Source: Exiguobacterium sp. Helios
Lineage (GTDB): Bacteria; Bacillota; Bacilli; Exiguobacteriales; Exiguobacteriaceae
Length of the DNA stretch: 64,000 bases
Direction of reading: 5' to 3'
NCBI RefSeq assembly: GCF_014524545.1
Contig: NZ_CP053557.1
Coordinates: forward strand, 1,575,501 to 1,639,500
Part shown: positions 25,548-57,396 of the stretch, piece after piece
Position numbering within the stretch: position 1 is the first letter of the stretch
Layout of the letters: every line of letters begins with the position of its first letter
Position numbers and translations under genes: made by a program
The notes under the pieces: model-generated
The model's database searches: none
Told to the model about the DNA's origin: nothing
Seen by the model: only the letters and a program-made list of their open reading frames with translations

Positions 25548-25895
25548 TTAATAGAGTCCGGTCATCGTCAGTTTCAACAGCATCGAGATGATGTAGGTTT
25601 TTGCCGTTCGCGTATCTGTAAACTGTTGCTCGTCAAACGTTTTCCCCCGTTCACGGAAGAATGTATGCCATACACCCTGTTCCTGGTAGTAATAGAATCC
25701 GTCCGCCAGCCGGTCGCCTGAGGGTGAATCTGGAAAACCGTGTTTTTCGGTATAAGCGAAGACATCTGCTTCGGTGACGGTAAACACATCCAAATAGGAA
25801 TGATTCCGCATGTCAGAGACATTCAGTGTGTCGCAGGCAAACTGATACGGATTGCCGTACAGGAGAACTCTGATTTGTGTATCGTGGTCAATCAT
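25548..25895 (-). CDS. Hypothetical cytosolic protein, 115 residues
   Basis: 115 residues, no membrane segment, central aromatic stretch DGFYYYQEQGVWHTFF. AGGAG precedes the ATG. Likely co-transcribed with the GNAT gene downstream (17 bp). Looks like a small immunity-type or accessory protein but I recognise no family. Confidence 0.6.
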   Translation of the reverse strand: MIDHDTQIRVLLYGNPYQFACDTLNVSDMRNHSYLDVFTVTEADVFAYTEKHGFPDSPSGDRLADGFYYYQEQGVWHTFFRERGKTFDEQQFTDTRTAKTYIISMLLKLTMTGLY

Positions 25896-26098
25896 ATCCT
25901 TCGACTCCTGTCCTTGAAAAATGGTGATATCGACGTTCGAAATGTATTTCCATCATTTTAACATTTGGATTATTGTAAAACCAGATGATGGTAAAATAGA
26001 AGGAGAAAGTTGGCATTCGTTCAGAAGCTTCAAGGTTGTTATAGCACCGTCTCTGGATAGGTTATGTACGATATAAAATGGAAAGCAGGAACAAAATA

Positions 26099-26554
26099 AT
26101 GAACTATATCATGGAACTCCGAAAATTTGTCGGTACACGTCCGCTCGTCGTACCCGGCGCTTGTGTCATCGTCCTGAATGAACAAAAGGAAGTGTTATTA
26201 CAACTGCGCCGCGATAATCACTGTTGGGGACTTGCCGGCGGAGCACTCGATCCGGGTGAAACGCTGGAGCAGGCAGCGGCCCGTGAACTGTTTGAAGAAA
26301 CCGGACTGACGGCAAATCGGCTTGAGTTATTCAACGTCTACTCCGGCAACGACTTTTACTATAAATATCCGCACGGGGATGAGGTCTACAATGTCATCTC
26401 GGCCTATATCTGCCGCGACTATCAGGGGACATTGGTACAGGACGATAAAGAAGTCGCGGACTTACGGTTCTTCCGTTTAGACGACTTACCGGACAAAATC
26501 AATCCGCCGGAACATCCGATTTTGCTCGAGTTCATTGCAACGTATCAATCATAA
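26099..26554 (+). CDS. NUDIX hydrolase
   Basis: 151 residues. The Nudix box is complete (GGALDPGETLEQAAAREL followed by FEETGL), with the metal-binding REL-x-EE core, so it should hydrolyse a nucleoside-diphosphate-linked substrate with Mg. The opening MNYIMELRKFVGTRPL is the common start of a Bacillales Nudix subgroup, which is why I place the start at ATG 26099 rather than 26078. Substrate unknown. Confidence 0.9.
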   Translation: MNYIMELRKFVGTRPLVVPGACVIVLNEQKEVLLQLRRDNHCWGLAGGALDPGETLEQAAARELFEETGLTANRLELFNVYSGNDFYYKYPHGDEVYNVISAYICRDYQGTLVQDDKEVADLRFFRLDDLPDKINPPEHPILLEFIATYQS

Positions 26555-26626
26555 AGCGGCAACGCGACACGAGACACGTTCACAAGTTCTGTCTCTGTAA
26601 AGAAAGTAGCCGGAAGGAGAGAGCTC

Positions 26627-26923
26627 ATGAAGAGCATTGAAATAGTCGTCACCACGGTTCAATCAGCAGGCGAACTGCATCGTCTCTTAAAACAGAAACT
26701 GGACTTTCCGGCATATTACGGTGAGAACTGGGATGCATTTTGGGATCTTATCAGCGATCCGGAGGATTACGGTTTACCGGACGAAATCATATGGATTGGT
26801 TTTGCAGCACTCCAACGAAAGCTGCCGAAAGAAGCAGGGCAATTATTAGCGTGTCTGGATGATTATCATCAGGAAATGGAACTTCAGCCATGTATGTCGA
26901 CTTTCTTGGAAAATACGGATTGA
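26627..26923 (+). CDS. Barstar-family ribonuclease inhibitor, orphan
   Basis: 98 residues. Barstar pattern: LHRLLKQKLDFPAYYGENWD followed by AFWDLISD, the helix-2 region that plugs the barnase active site. GGAAGGAG precedes the ATG. No barnase-like RNase is visible nearby, so it is an orphan inhibitor, either protecting against toxins from other strains or against a distant cognate. Confidence 0.88.
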   Translation: MKSIEIVVTTVQSAGELHRLLKQKLDFPAYYGENWDAFWDLISDPEDYGLPDEIIWIGFAALQRKLPKEAGQLLACLDDYHQEMELQPCMSTFLENTD

Positions 26924-27015
26924 GGTCGATTACCCGTAATAGGGGGTTGCTCTGGGATGCGTTTCAGAATCTATACTGAAGATGAACAGTACATTATCCC
27001 GTGAGGAGGAACACC

Positions 27016-27909
27016 ATGCGCTTATTTGCCATTGATTTAGACGGCACCTTGTTACACTCAACTCATATGATTTCAGAACGAAATGTCACAGCCGTCAAGC
27101 GATGTCAGGAGAACGGAGATATCGTCGTGATCGCGACAGGGCGAGCGGCGTTTGATGCAGCGCATTTGTTACGGCTCCACCGGTTGGATTGTCCAATTAT
27201 CGGTTCAAACGGAGCAGAAATCCGGGCAGAATGCGAAGGGATAACGATACGGAAAAATACTTATGTCCCCTCTGATGAGAGTGAAGCCATCTTGAACTGC
27301 TTGCTGAAGAAGAACGTTTATCTTCAAATTTACTTGGAAGACGAAATTCTGTTGACGTTTGATGCGACGGATCGACTGATGAAACAAATCAATGACGAAC
27401 AGAGGATTAATCCATCGTTTCAAGCTGACGCATTTCTTCAATCCGTGCAACCACAATTGAAACAATACGGTGTCCGGGAAGTAACGGGTTTCTTAAATGT
27501 CGATTTCGCGAAAGTCATGAAATATATGGTCGTCAGTCCGAACGCAACCGTACTGAAACAAATTCAAAACGACTTATCATCGCAAAACTGTACCGTTACC
27601 AGTTCCGGCCCATTTAACCTCGAGGTAACGGCGAACGGAAGAGATAAAGGCATGGCATTGCAACAATTTGCTGAACGGTTGGGGATTTCACTGACAGCAA
27701 CGATAGCGATTGGCGATCATCACAATGACCTGCCGATGTTTCGGGTCGCCGGGACAAGTATTGCAATGGGGAATGCGGAAGACATCGTTAAACGACTGGC
27801 GACTTACAAGACAGGACATCATGATGAAGACGGGGTTGCCATGGCGTTGGAAATGTTTTGTTCGATTCCGTTCGATTTGGGAGGAGGACAGGATGGCAAA
27901 TATTACTGA
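27016..27909 (+). CDS. Cof-type HAD phosphatase
   Basis: 297 residues. HAD motif I FAIDLDGTLLHST (Asp nucleophile), motif II VIATGRA, motif III lysine region TANGRDKGMALQQFAER, and motif IV GDHHNDLPMFRVAG. The large C2-type cap places it with Cof/sugar-phosphatases acting on phosphosugars. ATG 27016 is preceded by GAGGAGG. Its 3' end overlaps the LacI-type regulator start by 17 bp, so the two are translationally linked; the regulator may respond to a related sugar. Confidence 0.9.
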   Translation: MRLFAIDLDGTLLHSTHMISERNVTAVKRCQENGDIVVIATGRAAFDAAHLLRLHRLDCPIIGSNGAEIRAECEGITIRKNTYVPSDESEAILNCLLKKNVYLQIYLEDEILLTFDATDRLMKQINDEQRINPSFQADAFLQSVQPQLKQYGVREVTGFLNVDFAKVMKYMVVSPNATVLKQIQNDLSSQNCTVTSSGPFNLEVTANGRDKGMALQQFAERLGISLTATIAIGDHHNDLPMFRVAGTSIAMGNAEDIVKRLATYKTGHHDEDGVAMALEMFCSIPFDLGGGQDGKYY

Positions 27910-28864
27910 AATTGCAAAAACCGCCGGCGTTTCCCGCTCGACGGTTTCCCGTGTATTGAACAATCAACCGTATGTCGTCGCGGAAAAGCGTGCGGCGGTT
28001 CTCCGGGCGATGGAGCAACTGGATTACCGGCCGAACCAAAACGCGGTTCATTTATCGCGTGGCAAAACAAATGTCATCGGTGTGATGGTCCCGCAAATCA
28101 ATCATCCGTTTTTTAGTCAACTGATCGAGGGCATCGGTATTGCCTGTGCCGAACAGAACATTTCGATGCTGATCCATCAAACGTTTAATGACAGGCAACA
28201 GGAACAGCTGTCGTTTACACAACTGAGGCGTAAACAAATCGACGGACTGATCATCGGCTCGTCGGTCAGTCCGCCTGACGTGCTCGAGCGTGTCCGACGC
28301 GATGGTCCGGTCGTAATCTGCGAACAGCGGGAAGAAAGTCTCGCGCAGGTCGCTGTTGATCATCAAAGTGGAGTCTTAGCAGTGTTATCTCATTTAGTGG
28401 AACGGGGACATTCTTCTCTTGGACTGTGTCTCGGAAATCCGGCGAGCGGTGTTGGACTAATTCGTCGCAACACCTTCGATGCGTTCGTTCAAGAACACGA
28501 TATATCCGTTTCGCCGGACTGGTATTTTGAGGAGAACTATTCCTTTGTGGATGGACAGGACGTGATGAAACGCTTGCTGAAACTGACGGACAGACCAACT
28601 GCCATCATCGTCGGGAATGATTACGTTGCTGCCGGCATCATTCATCAGGCGAAACAAGGAGGGATTAACATTCCGGAGATGCTTGCTGTGACCGGTTTTG
28701 ACAATCATCCGATTGCTGAAGCGATGGGGATGACGACCGTTGCTCAACCGATTGAACGTCTCGGGAAAGAAGCAGTCCAACTGCTCGATCGATTGGCTGC
28801 GGGAAAAGAGCTTCCCATCTGTCAGCCGATTCCACTCGAGCTGATTGTGCGTGAAACGACATGA
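27893..28864 (+). CDS. LacI/GalR family transcriptional regulator
   Basis: 323 residues. N-terminal HTH and hinge helix: NITEIAKTAGVSRSTVSRVL, then LDYRPNQNAVHLSRGKT. Residues 60-323 are a periplasmic-binding-type effector domain, with the usual TAIIVGNDYVAAGI and LAVTGFDNHPIAEAM. Start ATG 27893 follows GGAGGAGGA and lies within the HAD gene end. Effector and targets unknown; the partner phosphatase suggests a sugar phosphate. Confidence 0.92.
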   Translation: MANITEIAKTAGVSRSTVSRVLNNQPYVVAEKRAAVLRAMEQLDYRPNQNAVHLSRGKTNVIGVMVPQINHPFFSQLIEGIGIACAEQNISMLIHQTFNDRQQEQLSFTQLRRKQIDGLIIGSSVSPPDVLERVRRDGPVVICEQREESLAQVAVDHQSGVLAVLSHLVERGHSSLGLCLGNPASGVGLIRRNTFDAFVQEHDISVSPDWYFEENYSFVDGQDVMKRLLKLTDRPTAIIVGNDYVAAGIIHQAKQGGINIPEMLAVTGFDNHPIAEAMGMTTVAQPIERLGKEAVQLLDRLAAGKELPICQPIPLELIVRETT

Positions 28865-28935
28865 TACTTGAAAGTTGTAAAGCTTGTAAACGTAGCGGTT
28901 TATCTTCGCAAAGCGGTTGGTCAGGAGAGGATTAT

Positions 28936-29295
28936 ATGGAAATCTATCAATTTAAAAAAGAAGTGGGTAAGAAAATTACAAAGTTCGACTCAGATTTTGT
29001 GATGTCACGTATTACACAGACAGACAAAGTAGCACATATAGGATGTGTGCATTTAGATGAGGATGGGTTAATTGGTTATCATCCAGCTGTTGTTCCTCAA
29101 CTTCTTTTAGTTGTAAGCGGAGAAGGCTGGGTCAGAGGTGAAACGGATGAATACATCAAAGTTCATAGTGGGGAAGCAGTGTTCTGGGATAAAGATGAAT
29201 GGCATGAAACCAAAACAGATACGGGATTGACTGCAATCGTTATAGAAAGCGAAGAGCTGACCACTTCATCATTAATATCTTTGGAAAAATTTTAA
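28936..29295 (+). CDS. Cupin-fold protein
   Basis: 119 residues with cupin pattern: IGYHPAVVPQLLLVVSGEG (motif 1 His, here with Pro instead of second His) and VHSGEAVFWDKDEWHETKT (motif 2). Probably a small metal or ligand-binding beta-barrel. ATG 28936 is preceded by AGGAGAGG. It follows the LacI gene by 70 bp on the same strand. Function unknown. Confidence 0.75.
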   Translation: MEIYQFKKEVGKKITKFDSDFVMSRITQTDKVAHIGCVHLDEDGLIGYHPAVVPQLLLVVSGEGWVRGETDEYIKVHSGEAVFWDKDEWHETKTDTGLTAIVIESEELTTSSLISLEKF

Positions 29296-29435
29296 GTGTT
29301 AATACATATGAGAAACTAAAAAAATATCCTAATTAAGCTGCCGTTACAGCTTATTCATTCGGTGCAATAATTGTAAAGAGGATTTCTTTGTCTTGCCAGA
29401 TTTGATATAGATAGCCTGCTTTCAGGTGCGAACGA

Positions 29436-29484
29436 AAAAACGCAGATGCTCTGTTCTTCCGTGAACAGGAGGATCTGCGTTTTT
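29436..29484 (-). terminator. Branched stem-loop terminator
   Basis: Outer arms 29436-29447 and 29473-29484 (12 bp) and inner arms 29451-29456 and 29463-29468 (6 bp) pair perfectly, with A and T runs outside. It overlaps the stop of the - strand gene at 29484. Confidence 0.75.
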
Positions 29485-29705
29485 CACATGAAAGTCTTTC
29501 GTTTGTACATTTTCTCTTCGATTCGATTCCAAATACGTGTTGCGATATAAATATTACATACTGAAACGATAGCTGCGATGACAATCATACTGATACCGGT
29601 ATCATCTGCTAAAACAAGCGGTTTAAAGATCGTGAACACGATAGACAGAAGAATCGGAATGGTAATGCCGATCCATACAGAAAAGAATAATAGTGCTTTC
29701 CACAT
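29484..29705 (-). CDS. Small two-helix membrane protein
   Basis: 73 residues, two helices (about 3-27 and 41-57), basic C-terminus (EEKMYKRKTFM). The start ATG 29705 is nine bases from AAAGGA; the ATG at 29714 would overlap the RBS. No family recognised. Confidence 0.6.
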   Translation of the reverse strand: MWKALLFFSVWIGITIPILLSIVFTIFKPLVLADDTGISMIVIAAIVSVCNIYIATRIWNRIEEKMYKRKTFM

Positions 29706-29843
29706 CAAGCTCATCCTTTCAAGGTGAATCTATAATGTAGTATATCAAACAATAGACTTTATATTAGAAAAAATGGAAAACTTAGACATATTCCGTTATT
29801 CTTTATAGGTAGCACAACATTATTTTCCGGTAAGGAGCATAAA

Positions 29844-30518
29844 ATGACAGAAGTCCTGATTATAGAAGAACCTGTTACCACAAAGTTCATAGAAGATTTA
29901 GTGCATCCCCATCGGTTTGACGGAGGTTTACCTGTTGTGCATCGTTTAAGCGGAGAAGGACACGTCGAAGAAGGTCGAGAATTTTTAATGGCATTCTTAA
30001 CACATCAAGCGGTCTTCCCGTTGTATGTGCATTTTGTCGACGAGTATGAACTGTCTGAAGACTTTACGACCTTTTTTCAACAACATCAGATTGACTATAC
30101 GGTTGACGACTGTGGCGGCAACTTGAAATCTTACGGGTATAAACGGTACAACTATTATTCTTGTATTACGGCAAAAATCCAAAATATTGCTGACTTGCGG
30201 CTTGTATTAAACAAAACGTACTGGCTCGCATCTGAAAATGTATTCTACTGCATCAGTCATTCAGATTCTTTAACGTTTGAATGGGGAGAGTTCTTAGAAT
30301 GGGGAGTCAAAAGAAGACGATCCATCGCTGTATTTGATTTTAATGCTTCAAAGACCTACATCACCACTGATTATGACGGGTTAGGATTTTGTATCCTCAG
30401 CCGGGATACGCAGTATGCTTCTCTTGCTGGCATGATCGCCAGTTTGCCGGACCAGATGGTCGTTACGCAAATTAATGATGAAGTCATAGAGGAAGACGAT
30501 GACTTCTCTCTTCTATAA
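29844..30518 (+). CDS. Immunity-like family protein (TYW family), member A
   Basis: 224 residues, acidic, cytosolic. Core: a FPLYVHF strand near 57, a Tyr-rich YYSCITAKI strand near 105, the L-x-LVLNKTYWLASENVFYCIS segment near 120-140 and an acidic tail. The same order recurs at 36553, 42998, 43651 and 44251, which I call the TYW family after this TYW segment. No known domain recognised. AAGGAG precedes the ATG. It opens the long + strand accessory region. Confidence 0.7.
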   Translation: MTEVLIIEEPVTTKFIEDLVHPHRFDGGLPVVHRLSGEGHVEEGREFLMAFLTHQAVFPLYVHFVDEYELSEDFTTFFQQHQIDYTVDDCGGNLKSYGYKRYNYYSCITAKIQNIADLRLVLNKTYWLASENVFYCISHSDSLTFEWGEFLEWGVKRRRSIAVFDFNASKTYITTDYDGLGFCILSRDTQYASLAGMIASLPDQMVVTQINDEVIEEDDDFSLL

Positions 30519-42997: not shown

Positions 42998-43615
42998 ATG
43001 CAAATCTATATCGAAGAAAAACCGGATCACGCGAAAACGATCAAAGAGTACCATATAGTGATGAAAGGACAGGACCGATTGAAAACCATTTTTTCAGTCG
43101 AGTATTATAACGAGGACTCGAATGAAGATGAAATCATCACGGATGAGGAAGTTTTAACGCAATTATTCACGCGTTTGAATCGTTTTCCCGTCTATCTATC
43201 CTTTGGGTTGCATGAACTGACTGATTCAGGAATAGAAGATGTGATATCTACGGTTAAGCAAAGAAAGTTACTTTATACGCAGACTTCGATTAATAAACGT
43301 GAGACTTATATGATGATTGAAGTAAATCAACCAGAAGACTTGCTTCAAGTGCTAGAGAAGTCACTTTCATTGGCTAGTTACAATGGCTACTATTTGATTT
43401 CTTTGACGAAGCTATTGAAATTTGAAACGCGGAGTACAAGACGGTGGTTCGTCAAAAAAGAAAGACTCGTACCAGTGGTCGATATGACGGAACCGACGAC
43501 GTTTTTGAAAATCGGATTTGATTTCGAGAATGTCCTGATCTTCTCAAACGAAGCATGGTTCGATGCATTAGAAAAGATAGAAGCATTCTTTCCTGAAGAT
43601 GAAATCGAACAGTAG
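42998..43615 (+). CDS. Immunity-like family protein (TYW family), member C
   Basis: 205 residues, acidic. It opens with MQIYIEEKPDHAKTIKEYH, contains RFPVYLSFGLHEL near 65 and WFVKKERLVPVVDMTEP near 150, and ends PEDEIEQ. Same length as member E (44251). Only a weak RBS (AGAGAAG) precedes the ATG. It is the first of three adjacent paralogues. Confidence 0.7.
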   Translation: MQIYIEEKPDHAKTIKEYHIVMKGQDRLKTIFSVEYYNEDSNEDEIITDEEVLTQLFTRLNRFPVYLSFGLHELTDSGIEDVISTVKQRKLLYTQTSINKRETYMMIEVNQPEDLLQVLEKSLSLASYNGYYLISLTKLLKFETRSTRRWFVKKERLVPVVDMTEPTTFLKIGFDFENVLIFSNEAWFDALEKIEAFFPEDEIEQ

Positions 43616-43650
43616 GCAGATGGATTGATTGAGAAAGAGGAGGAAAAATC

Positions 43651-44157
43651 ATGCTGAATGTCTATTTTGAGAAACATATAGATCACACAAAAGTCATCAA
43701 AGACAGATACTTGTACATCGATCAACCAGAGCGTATCGACTTCATCTATTCGATGGACGGTATTCCGGATGAGGAGGTCGAACCGTTTTTTCAAAAGAAC
43801 AACTTATCGTATACAAAGTTTCGACCAAACAAGCACCCTTATTATAGCGTTCAAGTGAATCATGCTAGAGAGCTTGAGCTTTTGCTAGACGAGACCTATT
43901 GGTATGCGGCTGCGAACGATTTTTACTTCCTATCCTTTACGCATCTCCTGACGTTTGAGCAGAGAATGATAAAAGAGTGGTTTTTCAAAAAAGAACGCAT
44001 CGTTCCTGTCATTCATACAACGGAAGAGATGTCCTTCATCACGATCGCTCATGATTTCTCGGGTTATTACCTATTTACGAATGAAGACTGCTTTGATACC
44101 GAGGAAAAGGTAAAATCGGTCTTTCCTGACGACGGTACCATTGAATTCTATATCTGA
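43651..44157 (+). CDS. TYW family, member D, internally deleted
   Basis: 168 residues. It matches member E at both ends (DHTKVIKDRYL; DETYWYAAANDFYFLSFTHL; EEMSFITIAHDF) but lacks about 36 residues after SMDGIPDEE, the part that holds the FPVFLTF strand in the paralogues. The frame is kept. In member E the missing stretch is flanked by GATGAG copies, which suggests deletion between short repeats. RBS AAGAGGAGG is strong. May be partly functional or decaying. Confidence 0.7.
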   Translation: MLNVYFEKHIDHTKVIKDRYLYIDQPERIDFIYSMDGIPDEEVEPFFQKNNLSYTKFRPNKHPYYSVQVNHARELELLLDETYWYAAANDFYFLSFTHLLTFEQRMIKEWFFKKERIVPVIHTTEEMSFITIAHDFSGYYLFTNEDCFDTEEKVKSVFPDDGTIEFYI

Positions 44158-44250
44158 AAAAGTAGCAACTGTATTCATAATTAGACCATGATTCATAGGG
44201 AAGTTTCGTTTAGTGAATGTGGCACAAGTAGGATACGTGGAGGGAGACTT

Positions 44251-44868
44251 ATGCTATATATCTATCTCGAGGAGCATACCAATCATACGAAAGTGATCAA
44301 GGACCGCTATCTAGATATTGAGGAACCAGATCGCATCAAGTCGATCTATTCGATGGGGTGCATCCCGAATGATGAGAAAAGAGATTACCAAGGTGACTCG
44401 AACACTGTATTGAAGCACTTTTTGATGCGCTTGAATAGTTATCCAGTCTTCTTGACGTTTGGTGGCGGGTTTACAGATGAGGATGTAGAGGCGTTCTTTC
44501 AGCAGGAGAAGTTGTCTTACACGAAGTTTCAACCGCATAAGCGCAGACCTTATTACAGCGTTCAAGTGAACGATGCAGGCGAACTGGAACGTCTGTTGGA
44601 CGAAACGTACTGGTATGCCGCTGCTAACAATTTTTACTTCCTTTCGTTTAAGAATCTCCTGACTTTTGAATCGAGGATGATCAGACGATGGTTCTTTAAA
44701 AGGGAAATGATTGTTCCTGTTGTTAATACGACGGAAGAGATGTCCTTCATTACGATTGAGCATGATTTCATGGGCTATTATCTGTTTTCGAATGAAGCCT
44801 GTTTTGATACAGAGGACAAGGTGAAAGCGTTTCTGCCTGAAGGTGACGGCATCGATTACTATGAGTAA
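44251..44868 (+). CDS. Immunity-like family protein (TYW family), member E
   Basis: 205 residues, acidic. Opening YIYLEEHTNHTKVIKDRYLD; RLNSYPVFLTFGGGFTDE near 60; LLDETYWYAAANNFYFLSFK near 115; IVPVVNTTEEMSFITIEHDF near 155. Very close to member D, so the pair is a recent tandem duplication. ATG 44251 follows GGAGGGAG; an in-frame ATG at 44188 lacks an RBS. Followed by the 44914 gene. Confidence 0.75.
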   Translation: MLYIYLEEHTNHTKVIKDRYLDIEEPDRIKSIYSMGCIPNDEKRDYQGDSNTVLKHFLMRLNSYPVFLTFGGGFTDEDVEAFFQQEKLSYTKFQPHKRRPYYSVQVNDAGELERLLDETYWYAAANNFYFLSFKNLLTFESRMIRRWFFKREMIVPVVNTTEEMSFITIEHDFMGYYLFSNEACFDTEDKVKAFLPEGDGIDYYE

Positions 44869-46258: not shown

Positions 46259-46936
46259 TTGAATTACATATCAGCAGGATATTTTCTTGTTATGCCAACA
46301 CCCCGTAAAGATTATATGGATGAAAAGGTTGTTCCCGAAACCGTGCTATCAGTGAGTGATTGTCTCTGTAATCAATATCCTAATACCAGTATCTTATGGG
46401 GGAATTCTGAAGTGAATAGAGAACGCTAAATGGATCAACTTGGTCTTTCGCTTAACAACTTTCAGTTATTCGAACATTGGATAGAAGAACATAGGAATAC
46501 TGGTGATGTTTTGTTTCCTCAAGTCTTTTCTGATTTACATACTGCGGAAGAATTTTTAAAGCGTTTTTTGATTCATCTACCTGGTATACGCATCATCAGC
46601 ATCGGATTACCTGAACAGTATATAGTAGATTTTCTTAAAGATGTAGAATTATTCAGCAGTAAAAATCCTGAACCATATGGAGTGGAAAAAATGTTGTCAC
46701 AGCACCACCCACCTGGGATAGAGGGAGCAAAAAAAGTAGGATACGAAGTTTTGGGATTTGACTCTGGCTCGTTTCATTCCTATTTATGTAATGGATTAGA
46801 GCGTGATTTGCATCAGCATTTTAATTTTTCACTAAATCGTTATGGGTTGATTGATTCGATAGAAGAAGCTGATCGTTATTCAGATTATTGTAATGCATTG
46901 GGTGAGGACACAGAATCCGTACTATGGTCTCCGTGA
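46259..46936 (+). pseudogene. Hypothetical gene split by an in-frame TAA
   Basis: TTG 46259, eight bases from AAGGAG, opens a 56-codon frame (NYISAGYFLVMPTPRKDY) that stops at TAA 46427-46429. The very next codon, in the same frame, is ATG 46430, and the frame continues for 168 residues (MDQLGLSLNNFQLF to VLWSP). There is no RBS before 46430. The simplest reading is one gene of about 225 codons broken by a single nonsense codon; two coupled genes are the alternative. No family recognised. Confidence 0.6.
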
Positions 46937-47003
46937 GCTATTTTTGAATACAAGAAAAGAAGAGCAAATAAGAATTAACGATTGATATAACTAAGGAGAT
47001 AAT

Positions 47004-47288
47004 ATGAATCAGTCAATATTAATTAGATATTTCATCGCAGCATTTGTGATTAACATAAGTTTGTGGGTTATGATAAGATTTTCAATCGATGAGTTAGTTT
47101 CTGATAAACGTATTTTATCTGCTTTTTTTATGATTACCATTTGGTCAATATTTTTCTTGCCGATCAAGAGACTGGATGTTTATAAGAACCAAACGATACC
47201 TTATTGGACGTTTAACCTATTTATGACGCTTGGGATGATTTTAATCACCATTATCTGTTTTTCTGTACTTATAGTCGTATTCCCGTGA
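47004..47288 (+). CDS. Three-helix membrane protein, 94 residues
   Basis: 94 residues with three helices (about 7-27, 36-55, 68-93). TAAGGAGATA precedes the ATG. AT-rich. No family recognised; like other small membrane genes of the area it is alone. Confidence 0.6.
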   Translation: MNQSILIRYFIAAFVINISLWVMIRFSIDELVSDKRILSAFFMITIWSIFFLPIKRLDVYKNQTIPYWTFNLFMTLGMILITIICFSVLIVVFP

Positions 47289-47298
47289 AAATATTTAA

Positions 47299-47400
47299 AT
47301 TCGAAAAAAATATATCGAACAGCATCGAGCGAATCAATTCGAAAATCTATTATTCGACACGGATGAATTAGTAGACTTCAATCGTAAGCCTTTCGTGTAA
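47299..47400 (+). pseudogene. C-terminal gene remnant
   Basis: After a TAA at 47296 the frame RKKYIEQHRANQFENLLFDT followed by DELVDFNRKPFV runs to TAA 47398-47400, with charged, protein-like composition but no start codon or RBS. I take it for the last 34 codons of a deleted gene. The rest of 47289-47715 holds only a terminator-like hairpin and the promoter of the next gene. Confidence 0.35.
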
Positions 47401-47479
47401 GAGGCTTTAAAATTTCATAATTAATTGTTGCGATCAAGAGAAGTACGGTCAATCCATTAAAACTCACGATAATCAAACG

Positions 47480-47512
47480 AAGCCTACATATAATCAGCGA
47501 TGTCGGCTTTTT
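47480..47512 (+). terminator. Stem-loop terminator
   Basis: Arms 47480-47489 and 47500-47509 pair at 9 of 10 positions and are followed by T-rich sequence. Confidence 0.6.
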
Positions 47513-47715
47513 CTGTATGTAGTATTCCTAAGCATCTTGTCGATAACCGACTGGGAGAATCACGTTCCTTGAATACGATCTCTAAATATTTAATTTGGGA
47601 TTTTTTTCATGAGTGAAACTTAATAAAGGAAAATATCGTATTTAGTATATAATATCTTTATCAAAATAAACTTGCTATCTAATGAAAATGAATACATATC
47701 TTGGAGGAACCGCTC

Positions 47716-47973
47716 GTGATCTTACCATTCATCGGTCTTGCCGCCGGACTCTTTTTGTTGATGTTAGGAACGTACTTCATCCGATGTAAGCATGCGAACA
47801 AAACGCCGCTATCCGGGCATGGAGACGGGGTCGATCATGTCGATTCGTTTTTGCTCAGTCTTCTCTTATCAATTGGTGTCATCCTCTTTAGTTCATTATC
47901 CGTCAGACAATACGGTTATTTCTGTTTAGCAGGAGGGGTACTTTTACTGTATGGTGTCAACGAAGTTTGGTAA
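47716..47973 (+). CDS. Three-helix membrane protein, 85 residues
   Basis: 85 residues with three helices (about 3-22, 42-58, 64-80). The GTG start at 47716 is nine bases from GGAGG. Unrecognised. Small loop contains SGHGDGVDHVD, acidic and His-bearing, which might bind metal but nothing else supports that. Confidence 0.6.
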   Translation: MILPFIGLAAGLFLLMLGTYFIRCKHANKTPLSGHGDGVDHVDSFLLSLLLSIGVILFSSLSVRQYGYFCLAGGVLLLYGVNEVW

Positions 47974-48081
47974 GGAAAAGAGAAGAAATAATAGGCGGGC
48001 ATCATTCATCACACACGACTGAAGGTGTAGGATGCAGTCTTAAAAAATTATATATACAGCAATGTAAAGGGAGCTACCAGC

Positions 48082-48708
48082 ATGGTGCAATTATTGAAGC
48101 AAATTGACGATGAAGTCTATCATGTCGTCTATCACCAAGAAGGACGCACGTTATTCGTCAGGGAAGGTGTTGCCCGGAAAGAACCGGCCCTGAATAGTGA
48201 GGACATGATTGAAATTAACGAGGAGACGGCGACTGTTCGAATTCCTTTTAAAAATACATTTGCCGCCTATCGTCAGAAAAAAGAATGGATGCGTCAAAAG
48301 ATGGAGGAGGGGTACTTGAAAGCACCTTTTTCTCAATCTGAGGCGATGAACTACCGCGCAGATCGGCGCAACATCAAATTACGTCTCCTGAGTGCTCTCT
48401 TGCTCATGCTGTGCGGATTATCGACATTGACCGGTCTGTTACCGATCCCGGGATATATTCCGCTTGTGTTCTTATCTTTCTTTTATCCGATCTATATTGA
48501 AGGGAAAACAGCCCGTGCCCGTTTTTATCGTTGGTCGGGAGGCGTATTCTTTTTTGTATTGGCCGGTTCATCAAAAGATTATTTAGAACCATTTAATCTT
48601 TCTGCCAACGGAACCGTCTGCCTTATCGCAGGATTCATCCTCTTGCTGTACACGACTCAACAATTAAAGGAACTTACGACGAAGGAGATCACACCGCATG
48701 AAGGATAA
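48082..48708 (+). CDS. WGR-like domain protein with membrane helices
   Basis: 208 residues. Residues 1-90: VYHVVYHQEGRTLFVREGV then KKEWMRQKMEEGYLKAPF, the WGR-like pattern. Residues 100-195: four helices. AAAGGGAG precedes the ATG. Its end overlaps the next gene of the same architecture by 11 bp, so the two are coupled and may form a hetero-oligomer. Confidence 0.65.
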   Translation: MVQLLKQIDDEVYHVVYHQEGRTLFVREGVARKEPALNSEDMIEINEETATVRIPFKNTFAAYRQKKEWMRQKMEEGYLKAPFSQSEAMNYRADRRNIKLRLLSALLLMLCGLSTLTGLLPIPGYIPLVFLSFFYPIYIEGKTARARFYRWSGGVFFFVLAGSSKDYLEPFNLSANGTVCLIAGFILLLYTTQQLKELTTKEITPHEG

Positions 48709-49381
48709 ACAAGAATCACTGATTCAATTAAAACGAGAGATCAGTCAAACCGTCGATTACTGGGTCTGTTACCGGGTGGGGCGGACGCTTTATCAGGTCT
48801 CCGTCCAAGAGCAGGCCAATGGTCAAACGAACGAAGGGGAGGTCACGACAGAGCGGTTCCCGTTCTATTTTGGCATGAAACAGCGGATGCGTCAGTTGGC
48901 CGAAGAAAAAGAAGCACTCGGCTTTCGACCGCTGACAGAGGCAGAACAGGCAGCGCACGTCATTGATGAACCGGAAGAACCACCTCTTGATCCTGGCTTT
49001 TTTGAGCCGGCCATTCGTTTGGCGTGGCTGCTCCTTGGACTCGGGATTCTCTTGTTCGTCCTTCCTTACGAGAGGCTTAATAATTTTGCATTCGGTTTAG
49101 GACTTTACGTCTGGTATGAGACATTTGGTCAGGTTGGTCTGCCGAAATTTTTCCGGCGGTATTTTCACGGAATGTTTGGTGCATTGATGGTATTGCAAGT
49201 CTTGTCCGCTTTTGAACTGGAGCGGGAAGTACAGCCATACTACGCCAGTTTATCTGTTTTGTCCGCGGTCATGTTGGTGTTACTTGTCGTGCAGTACCAT
49301 TTGAAAGAAACGGATCAAATCGGACAAGATAAACGTGTCAGTAGACGCAAAATTACAGAGTATCCGGATTTCGATGAGTGA
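48698..49381 (+). CDS. WGR-like domain protein with membrane helices
   Basis: 227 residues. Residues 14-95: VDYWVCYRVGRTLYQVSVQE then RQLAEEKEALGFRPLTEAEQ. An acidic Pro-rich linker follows (EPEEPPLDPGF), then three or four helices (about 115-205) and a basic tail. AAGGAG precedes ATG 48698, inside the end of the 48082 gene. Third membrane copy of this architecture. Confidence 0.65.
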   Translation: MKDKQESLIQLKREISQTVDYWVCYRVGRTLYQVSVQEQANGQTNEGEVTTERFPFYFGMKQRMRQLAEEKEALGFRPLTEAEQAAHVIDEPEEPPLDPGFFEPAIRLAWLLLGLGILLFVLPYERLNNFAFGLGLYVWYETFGQVGLPKFFRRYFHGMFGALMVLQVLSAFELEREVQPYYASLSVLSAVMLVLLVVQYHLKETDQIGQDKRVSRRKITEYPDFDE

Positions 49382-49508
49382 AACTGAAAATCCCATGCAC
49401 TCAACTTTCGGAAGACTGGTGGATGGAACAATCCTGTAAAATATAGGTAGCACATTAATATGCACGATTCATGAACTGAATCAGTCTATCGAAAAAGGGA
49501 GTGATGTC

Positions 49509-53956: not shown

Positions 53957-54862
53957 TTACTTTTGTTTTTTTGTCTTTTTAAAGCTATAAATGACACTGA
54001 TCAGGATGACAAGGACGATTGTTCCGAGTGACATCCAGATTGGCATTTTGTAGACATCGCTGAAAATCATCTTCGCTCCGATGAAGACGAGCATGAAGCT
54101 GAGACCGTGTTTCAGGTAGTAGAAGCGGTCAATCAGGTTTGCGAGGACGAAGTAGAGACTCCGGAGTCCAAGGATTGCCATGATGTTCGCATAGAAGATG
54201 ATGAACGGATCACGCGAGTACGCGAAGCTGGCTGCGACCGAGTCGACGGCGAAGACGATATCCGAAATCTCGATGAAGATCAACGCGATTAACAGTGGTG
54301 TAAAGAACAATTTACCGTTGATCCGTTGCGTAAATTTACCGGACGAGATGTCTTGTGTGATCGGCAAGCGCTTCTCAAGCCAACGTATCGTTTTGTTTTC
54401 TTCAAGCGACGTTTCCTGACCGATGTTCTTGAACATCATGTAACCCGTGTAGACGAGGAATGCCCCGAAGATGTAGTACACCCATGCGAAGTTCTCAAGA
54501 AGCGATACCCCTGCGACGATGAAGATGACACGGAAGAGAATGGCACCGAGAATTCCCCAGAACAGGACTTTGTGCTGGTACTTCAACGGAATCGCAAAGT
54601 ACGCAAAGACGAGTGAGAAGACGAAGACGTTGTCAATCGCGAGTGCCTTCTCGATGAAATACACGCTCGTGTATTCAATTGCAGCGTCGCTGCCTTGCGC
54701 ATAGAATAACCAACCGCCAAAGGCGACGGCGAGTCCGATCCAGACGAACGTCCACGTCCAGGCTTCGCGAAGCGAGACCTCATGGGCTTTCCTGTGAAAT
54801 ACGCCAAGGTCCAGTGCGAGCATGATGAAGACGATCGCTAAAAATACAATCAATAGTGTCAA
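53957..54862 (-). CDS. TerC/Alx family membrane protein
   Basis: 301 residues, about nine helices. The TerC marks LALDLGVFHRKAHEV, EKALAIDNVFVF and FIEISDIVFAVDSVAA are present, the acidic residues forming a probable metal path. TerC members are now linked to manganese export and metalation of exported proteins. Start TTG 54862, eight bases from AAGGAGG. I looked for a yybP-ykoY manganese riboswitch upstream and did not see one. Confidence 0.92.
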   Translation of the reverse strand: MTLLIVFLAIVFIMLALDLGVFHRKAHEVSLREAWTWTFVWIGLAVAFGGWLFYAQGSDAAIEYTSVYFIEKALAIDNVFVFSLVFAYFAIPLKYQHKVLFWGILGAILFRVIFIVAGVSLLENFAWVYYIFGAFLVYTGYMMFKNIGQETSLEENKTIRWLEKRLPITQDISSGKFTQRINGKLFFTPLLIALIFIEISDIVFAVDSVAASFAYSRDPFIIFYANIMAILGLRSLYFVLANLIDRFYYLKHGLSFMLVFIGAKMIFSDVYKMPIWMSLGTIVLVILISVIYSFKKTKKQK

Positions 54863-55019
54863 CAGCGCTTCCTCCTTTTAAGTTGTGTTCGGTTTATATT
54901 TTGATTATAAGTTCATAAGAACTCAAAGTAAAGGGGCGAGTATGCTGTTTATTTACAAAAACGGAATCAGACACTTTTTCGACTTAAAATCAAAATGAAG
55001 GGTAAAAGGAGGTAATTGT

Positions 55020-55763
55020 ATGGAAAAATCAAGTGCCATCAACAAAACCGCTTGGGAATACCGGGCCTATGAATTTTGGAATCAACGCGACGGGGCGCCG
55101 GCGGACAAGGCAAAAGATATTATGTTAAATCCGATGGCTAGTCTCAAGAAACATCAGAACTATTTTGAAGAAGTTGTCGGAAAACGAATTGCCAATCTCT
55201 GTGGATCGAACGGACGGAAGGCGGTTCCACTGGCGTTGCTTGGAGCAGACGTCACCGTCTTTGATATCTCGGAAGAAAACCGGCGCTATGCCCTTGAGCT
55301 TGCCGCCTGTGCCGGGACGCAGATTGACTATATCGTCGGTGATATTTAGGACATCGATTTGCATACCTATCAGCACCAATTCGATGTCCTGTATCTTGAA
55401 GGCGGGATATTGCATTATTTTCATGACCTGGAGGCATTCACGGCGATTTTGTTTGCCTTGCTCAAGCCGGGCGGGAAACTGATTTTGAGTGATTATCATC
55501 CGATCAAACATTGTATTCATGAAGACAAGTACATCCCGCGTTATTTTGATCAGGATACATATGAAGCTGATATTGCCCATCAAAATCATTTTGATCCGGT
55601 CGAGCAAACGGATTTTCCGAAGGTGCTGTTGCGGCACTATACGATGAGTGAAATTGTGAACACCGTCATCCGGAGCGGCTTTACCCTCTTGCAACTGGAC
55701 GAACATCCGGGGTGGAAGGGCGAAAACATCCCCTGGGAGTTCACGCTTGTCGCGATGAACTAA
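55020..55763 (+). pseudogene. SAM-dependent methyltransferase with in-frame TAG
   Basis: Starting at ATG 55020 (RBS AAAGGAGG) the frame reads KTAWEYRAYEFWNQRDGAPA, IANLCGSNGRKAVPLALLGA, FDISEENRRYALELA to VGDI, then TAG at 55347-55349, and continues in the same frame: DIDLHTYQHQFDVLYLEGGI, LLKPGGKLILSDYHP, to VAMN at 55763. The two parts make one class I methyltransferase of 247 codons. The stop lies between strand 4 and its helix, where relatives usually have Tyr or Trp, so the enzyme should be inactive unless TAG is read through. Confidence 0.85.
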
Positions 55764-55793
55764 AACCCAGCGTCCATGAGGACGCTGGGTTTG
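55764..55793 (+). terminator. Terminator after the methyltransferase
   Basis: Arms 55764-55776 and 55781-55793 form a perfect 13-bp stem with a 4-base loop, followed by T-rich sequence. Confidence 0.8.
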
Positions 55794-55817
55794 TTGTTCG
55801 ATTACTCGAAAGATTGG

Positions 55818-56056: not shown

Positions 56057-57259
56057 TTATAGACGTTCCAGACGACGGGAAACGGCAGTCAGGATGACGG
56101 CTAAGATGACCATGATGCCTCCGACCCACGGTGTGTGGACGAGCCCGATCGTGTCGGCAACAATTCCGCCGATCGTTGCACCGAGGGCAATTCCGATATT
56201 AAAAGCAGAGATGTTTAACGCCGAAGCGACATCAACGGCTGCCGGGACATATTTTTCCGCCAGTTGGACGATATAGAGTTGAAGCCCCGGGACATTCATG
56301 AAGGCGAGTAAGCCCGTCAGGATGATGCCGATGATACCGGCGACTTTAAATGGAATCATGAACGACAGGGCAATCATGATGATCGCATGCAGAATGAACA
56401 TATAGAATAACGCTTTGATTGGATTACCGTTGGCGAGCTTTCCGCCGACTGCGTTACCGATGGCGACAGCAATTCCGTAGACGAGCAGGATGATACTGAT
56501 CAGGCTCGGGCTGATTTTCGTGACGTCCTGCATGATCGGTGTCAGGTAGGTGAAGGCGACGAACGTTCCGCCGTAACCGAGCGCTGTAATCAGGAATCCG
56601 AGAATCAAGCGTCCATTCGTCAACAGTTTAAACATGTCGGAAAATTTCGCCGGTGGAGATTGTTTTAAGTCTTTTGGAATCAGGAAGAAACTGGCGATGA
56701 TCGAGACAAGACCAAGTGCCGCGACGGCGAAGAATGTCGCGCGCCAGCCGAATGCTTGACCGATGAATGTGCCGAGCGGAACTCCGGTCACGGTTGCAAC
56801 CGTCAGTCCGGTAAACATCAAAGCGATGGCACTGGCTTTTTTATCGGCCGGTACGAGCTGGACGGCAATCGTTGCGCCGATCGAGAAGAAGACGCCGTGC
56901 GAGAACGCCGTGATGAAGCGGGCGACGATCAACAGTTCAAAACTCGGAGCGACGGCAGAGACGAGATTACCGGCGATAAAGACGACCATCAACGACATGA
57001 GAAGCGTTTTCCGGTTCATCCGGTTCGTCAGAGCGGTTAAGATCGGCGCACCGACGGCGACGCCGATCGCATATCCGGAAATAATCAGTCCGGCCAGAGT
57101 GATACCGATATTTAAATCACCGGCAATCGCTGCGAGCAAGCCGACGGGGACAAATTCGGTTGTTCCGATTCCAAAGGCGCTGATGGCAAGTGCGAGCAGG
57201 GCAAGGCGGCCGTTTTGCGGGACCTGTTCCTGTTCGGCACGCGGGTTTAATTGATTCAT
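56057..57259 (-). CDS. MFS exporter, AraJ/YdhP type (DHA1)
   Basis: 400 residues, twelve helices. Family marks: ALAISAFGIGTTEFVPVGLL at the start, NRMNRKTLLMSLMVVF (motif A region), and GVPLGTFIGQAFGWRATFF (motif C). Such proteins export sugars, purine ribosides or drugs. ATG 57259 follows CAGGAGGA. Divergent from an HxlR regulator, with duplicated operator-like repeats between, so it is the probable target of that regulator. Confidence 0.9.
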   Translation of the reverse strand: MNQLNPRAEQEQVPQNGRLALLALAISAFGIGTTEFVPVGLLAAIAGDLNIGITLAGLIISGYAIGVAVGAPILTALTNRMNRKTLLMSLMVVFIAGNLVSAVAPSFELLIVARFITAFSHGVFFSIGATIAVQLVPADKKASAIALMFTGLTVATVTGVPLGTFIGQAFGWRATFFAVAALGLVSIIASFFLIPKDLKQSPPAKFSDMFKLLTNGRLILGFLITALGYGGTFVAFTYLTPIMQDVTKISPSLISIILLVYGIAVAIGNAVGGKLANGNPIKALFYMFILHAIIMIALSFMIPFKVAGIIGIILTGLLAFMNVPGLQLYIVQLAEKYVPAAVDVASALNISAFNIGIALGATIGGIVADTIGLVHTPWVGGIMVILAVILTAVSRRLERL

Positions 57260-57396
57260 GATGATTCCTCCTGAATTAGTGAAATAGATAATAGTAGACA
57301 ACGCAACGGCTGCTCTGAACGACCGGGCCCCGATCGTTTGGATGAAGGGAGAACACTTCTGCGTGATCCCATCATAGAGCGGCGTTGCTTTTCATG

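Follow-up and report, generated by a model that had tools for sequence, protein, structure and literature searches.

A probable young nonsense pseudogene of a methyltransferase in Exiguobacterium sp. Helios, with different lesions of the same gene in its sister genomes

Examination of a 64,000-nucleotide stretch of the Exiguobacterium sp. Helios genome (NZ_CP053557.1, 1,575,501 to 1,639,500; hereafter the window) reveals a gene for a predicted class I SAM-dependent methyltransferase that is broken by one in-frame TAG. It is most probably a real and young nonsense pseudogene, lying in a clade for which the enzyme has ceased to be necessary and in which four genomes each carry a lesion of their own. 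Given that one gene shows four lesions in four sister genomes and is intact in 14 of the other 15 examined, these observations suggest that the requirement for the enzyme changed in this one clade, and they make the gene a small, datable instance of parallel loss.

The frame (55020-55763, forward strand) opens with an ATG, meets the TAG as codon 110 after 109 codons, continues for 137 sense codons and ends on a TAA, giving 247 codons in all (Table 1). The preliminary description of this DNA had read it as a methyltransferase gene with a single internal TAG, and this reading is borne out by the frame itself, by intact homologues and by Pfam matches. Translated with an X at the stop, it scores above the Pfam cut-offs of Methyltransf_11 (43 versus 21.2 bits), Methyltransf_25 (42.2 versus 27 bits) and Methyltransf_31. 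Homologues that run unbroken through codon 110 are found in E. antarcticum (85% identity), E. undae (85%) and Exiguobacterium sp. KRL4 (83%), as well as in two Jeotgalibacillus species (63 and 64%). Since these homologues are unbroken across codon 110 and the read-through translation exceeds the Pfam cut-offs, the open frame downstream of the stop is not a product of chance, and the coding character that had been ascribed to it stands. The further claim that everything else in the gene is intact holds for the ribosome-binding site, the downstream frame and the terminator-like hairpin, but not for two residues, altered here (Y187H and R230P), at which all 15 other Exiguobacterium copies in the alignment agree; as other taxa carry 0-2 changes each at such invariant residues, the two changes are by themselves no evidence of decay. 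A DNA search finds one match place for the gene in its own genome, and in a protein search of the same genome the TAG is present inside that one copy.

Table 1. Positions, within the window, of the interrupted gene, its signals and its neighbours
Feature	Coordinates	Strand	Remarks
Ribosome-binding site AAGGAGG	55006..55012	+	7 nt 5' of the ATG; read directly
Pseudogene 5' part, 109 codons + TAG	55020..55349	+	N-terminal helices and strands 1-3; predicted from E. antarcticum homologue
In-frame TAG, codon 110	55347..55349	+	Tyr in 12, His in 2 of 14 intact Exiguobacterium orthologs
Pseudogene 3' part, 137 sense codons + TAA, coding-like	55350..55763	+	
Candidate restart: AGGA (55348-55351), 7 nt before in-frame TTG (55359-55361), overlapping the TAG	55348..55361	+	Read directly
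Intrinsic-terminator-like hairpin 3' of gene	55764..55800	+	T-rich tail; -23.1 kcal/mol, z -6.65
Left neighbour, TerC family	53957..54862	-	Same syntenic neighbour in G014, G009, G005, G004
Right neighbour, MFS transporter	56057..57301	-	Same syntenic neighbour in G014, G009, G005 (two pieces), G004

When modelled with AlphaFold (mean pLDDT 86.1, 6 sequences), the intact homologue from E. antarcticum takes on a class I methyltransferase fold, in which codon 110 lies between predicted strand 3 (103-106) and predicted strand 4 (121-127). Both the profile matches and this predicted fold liken the product to the class I SAM-dependent methyltransferases of the Methyltransf_11/25 type. None of the NCBIfam equivalog cut-offs is reached, with UbiG (31.7 bits versus a cut-off of 102.95), BioC, CmoM and TehB all far below. 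The 50 PDB matches listed, at 13-22% identity, comprise methyltransferases acting on small molecules or peptides as well as uncharacterised ones, the best PDB sequence match being a phosphomethylethanolamine N-methyltransferase (E 3.1e-7). All the named matches (UbiG, phosphoethanolamine methyltransferase, CypM and NTMT1) are too distant from this enzyme to assign it a substrate, and the wider interest of the case is accordingly modest. In the genome of a more distant species (G016) the intact ortholog adjoins a release-factor-like gene on the same strand (L016:1479-3413). A function deduced from this adjacency was considered and dropped, as the gene in the window has other neighbours; a release-factor methyltransferase is also absent among the NCBIfam matches listed up to E 0.01.

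Orthologs were compared across 19 Exiguobacterium genomes, of which a DNA search matched 17. The genome of the window is denoted G000 and its sister, Exiguobacterium sp. RIT594, G014. The frame is intact in 14 of the 19 (G001, G002, G003, G004, G007, G008, G010, G011, G012, G013, G015, G016, G017 and G018), and five lack an intact ortholog (G000, G014, G009, G005 and G006). Among the 16 full-length copies that could be aligned (the 14 intact ones, G000 and G014), a stop at codon 110 occurs in G000 alone. The gene is thus intact in relatives and carries its TAG well inside the frame, as expected of a nonsense pseudogene. In a gyrB tree G000, G014, G009 and G005 group together as a clade with a bootstrap of 97, within which G000 and G014 are sisters (84) and G009 branches next (76); the clade rests on this one gene. 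G006, which has no ortholog, sits on a long, deep branch of the same tree.

An intact copy is present in none of the four clade genomes, and each has lost it differently. Besides the TAG of G000, the gene of G014 has a 1-base deletion at codon 39 that brings in a stop as codon 42 of the shifted frame, together with a D108N change. In G009 the same TerC and MFS genes flank what a large deletion has spared, namely the ribosome-binding site and some 29 codons from the C-terminal end, and in G005 the gene is completely absent, with these neighbours about 320 bp apart and no recognisable remnant between them. A protein search for a substitute copy in G005, G006 and G009 returned only matches of 24-25% identity, plus the G009 remnant. 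As a separate observation on G005, its MFS neighbour is matched in two pieces (L144, G005:C1:1339500-1344500), with open frames of 355 and 95 aa, and may be frameshifted too.

Different lesions are therefore seen in sister lineages that form a clade, as judged by gyrB and one genome per species. A random draw of four losses among 18 tips of equal weight, with G006 excluded, would hit precisely these four genomes in one of 3,060 possible draws; by this hand calculation, which takes no account of branch lengths or of relatives being correlated, chance is an unlikely source of the pattern. Individual members of the set carry their own caveats, in that the frameshift of G014 may be an artefact of assembly, and the large lesions of G009 and G005 need not share a common cause with the TAG.

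The age of the stop was addressed with a branch codon model on seven taxa, using an unrooted gene tree with G000 and G014 at its base. On the branch leading to the window omega is 0.227 versus 0.152 in the background, a relaxation that is not significant (LRT 1.17), and omega = 1 is rejected (LRT 16.2). The G014 branch behaves similarly, with an omega of 0.246 versus about 0.152, no significant relaxation (LRT 1.23) and neutrality rejected (LRT 9.5). When the gene is divided at the stop, omega on the window branch is 0.166 for the part before it and 0.306 for the part after it, the latter value not differing significantly from the 0.158 with which it was compared (LRT 1.84). Under a model of selection followed by neutrality, the best neutral share of the window branch is about 0.1; a share of zero is not rejected, and the approximate 95% upper bound, taken at a 1.92-unit drop, is 0.34. 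The pairwise dN/dS of the gene between G000 and G014 is 0.183. For 33 neighbouring ORF pairs of the same two genomes the median omega is 0.12, with six pairs above 0.183 and a further two that match it to three decimals; this control set came from a mechanical ORF list of 40 pairs, of which seven with dS <= 0.05 were dropped. The value of the gene is higher than the median of its neighbourhood and is not extreme.

Furthermore, a tract of 166 nt (55375-55540) is identical between G000 and G014, while 80 differences lie elsewhere in the gene. None of 2000 random placements, which ignore codon constraint, reaches such a run, and the tract suggests recombination between the two lineages. Its omission leaves the selection result unchanged, the window-branch omega then being 0.202 with an LRT of 19.0 against omega = 1. 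A joint test of the G000 and G014 branches rejects omega = 1 (LRT 38.2, or 39.6 without the identical tract) and neither genome carries the other's lesion, so an ancient inactivation shared by the two was rejected. Because purifying selection acted along most of the window branch, the stop appears to be young: it is recent relative to the split of G000 and G014 and independent of the G014 lesion. Of the three explanations offered in the preliminary description, namely a mutation of very recent date, an error in sequencing, and readthrough, the first is the one that the branch model supports, with purifying selection dominating the branch and a neutral share between zero and about a third.

In light of these results, we propose that the gene would have been under purifying selection until recently, and that the enzyme would have become dispensable in the clade, to be lost by nonsense mutation, frameshift, large deletion and complete absence in its several members. 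In G000, ribosomes would start at 55020 and halt at the TAG after 109 residues, releasing a fragment whose Rossmann-like fold ends after strand 3, with the N-terminal helices and first three strands present and the second half missing. Judged by the part of the modelled fold that is missing, this fragment should be inactive. We presume the TAG to be fixed in this species, although it may instead be a rare polymorphism, as each species is represented by one genome.

Parallel inactivation of this kind is a known phenomenon, of which the present case is a new and modest example. As reported by Giles et al. 2009 (PMC2720952), the aaxB/aaxC gene cluster of Chlamydia trachomatis was independently inactivated by nonsense, missense and frameshift mutations, and the inactive Chlamydia aax genes lack a dN/dS sign of relaxed selection, the inactivations being recent. 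The two cases share different lesions in close relatives and no significant relaxation. They differ in that the Chlamydia genes belong to an obligate parasite and their inactivity was proved by experiment, whereas the Exiguobacterium case is known from sequence alone, includes deletions among its lesions and affects all four genomes of the clade. In the listed titles and abstract openings of the Exiguobacterium literature on pseudogenes and gene loss, there is no account of the loss of this methyltransferase.

The alternative that fares best is an error of sequencing or assembly, such that the gene is really intact in the isolate. In its favour, the damage is confined to one codon, the sequence keeps its coding character and the branch omega is not significantly relaxed. 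The assembly is nevertheless in two contigs and 100% complete, and none of the three nearest genomes has an intact copy, two of them through deletions beyond any base-calling error, so that with loss repeated in the nearest relatives a real loss is to be expected in G000. When the window was compared mechanically with three sister regions, one other interrupted gene that looked real emerged (46259-46963), and the remaining flagged rows were taken, without individual checks, as antisense ORFs, paralogs or genes differing in where they start or end; this is a weak sign that the region is not full of errors. Weighing these points, we regard an error as improbable.

Functional readthrough, in which an amino acid is inserted at the TAG and low amounts of full-length enzyme are made, appears less probable still. 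Both before and after the stop dN/dS is far lower than 1, as readthrough would have it, but such values can date from before the stop arose, and the stop itself is not conserved, being confined to one of the 16 aligned copies. When a stop is young, low dN/dS lends no support to readthrough. The tRNA search, in which 150 of 180 candidates were scored, gave 65 genes; ARAGORN, applied to the window and to the sequence surrounding these 65 matches, found no TAG-reading (CUA) tRNA among them, and all anticodons were ordinary. The gene for release factor 1 (prfA) is present in the genome above cut-off, and TAG is in use as a terminal stop, ending 11 of 302 ORFs of at least 150 aa in a 400-kb sample of G000, one of 54 window ORFs and 11 of 168 ORFs in the sister regions. 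A reassignment of the stop had briefly been suggested by 37 window genes (the 40 ORF pairs less three left out), which end in TAA (27), TGA (10) and never TAG; it was rejected on account of the 11 in 302 and the presence of release factor 1. TAG is merely rare and is an ordinary stop. A recoding structure after the stop was likewise rejected, as the 81 nt fold with a z of -1.30, a stability equalled by 15 of 200 shuffled sequences. With no TAG-reading tRNA found, release factor 1 present and TAG an ordinary stop, recoding is unlikely, and the readthrough that had been entertained earlier finds no support.

This outcome bears on how in-frame stops are read more generally. Belinky et al. 2021 (PMC7918605) propose readthrough for many bacterial in-frame stops on the basis of low dN/dS, consider many such events short-lived and likely deleterious over longer times, and assume that the vast majority are without functional recoding. 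Their cases resemble the present one in having one in-frame stop and a gene dN/dS below 1, and differ in that the stop found here occurs in no relative examined and that lesions of other kinds have removed the gene from the sister genomes. Coding character after a young stop is thus no evidence of readthrough, and sister species provide the quickest test.

The least probable of the alternatives is a split gene, in which translation halts at codon 110 and restarts at 55359 on the TTG (an ORF of 134 aa, 55359-55763, in the mechanical ORF call), so that the two halves form an active enzyme. The TAG and the following GA do spell an AGGA 7 nt before that TTG, and the break falls, in the predicted fold, outside the strands, between strands 3 and 4; proteins split outside strands can sometimes reassemble. 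Against such a reading, any TAG followed by GA forms an AGGA, which makes its presence a likely coincidence; R230P alters a residue that all 15 other aligned copies share, the sister genomes have lost the gene, and TTG is a weak start codon. It is improbable that the stop-making substitution, in also completing a Shine-Dalgarno-like AGGA, placed the gene at the first step of a fission whose translationally coupled halves might reassemble.

Several other features of the window deserve mention beside the young pseudogene. A second interrupted gene lies at 46259-46963 on the forward strand, with a TAA at 46427 (codon 57) and a TGA at 46934 (codon 226); its G018 homologue (L079) reads on, to 236 codons in total, and in the window an ATG stands directly 3' of the TAA. 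The ORF at 46430-46936 has no Pfam match. At 42998-44868 three adjacent ORFs all have one and the same sister gene as their match, with values of about 36%, 57% and 80%, and appear from these matches to be a local array of diverged paralogs. Finally, two segments, 25549-30496 and 46973-49415, are 98.4% and 97.2% identical to G014, versus 79-94% in the other listed blocks, and are probably segments recently held in common or exchanged with that genome.
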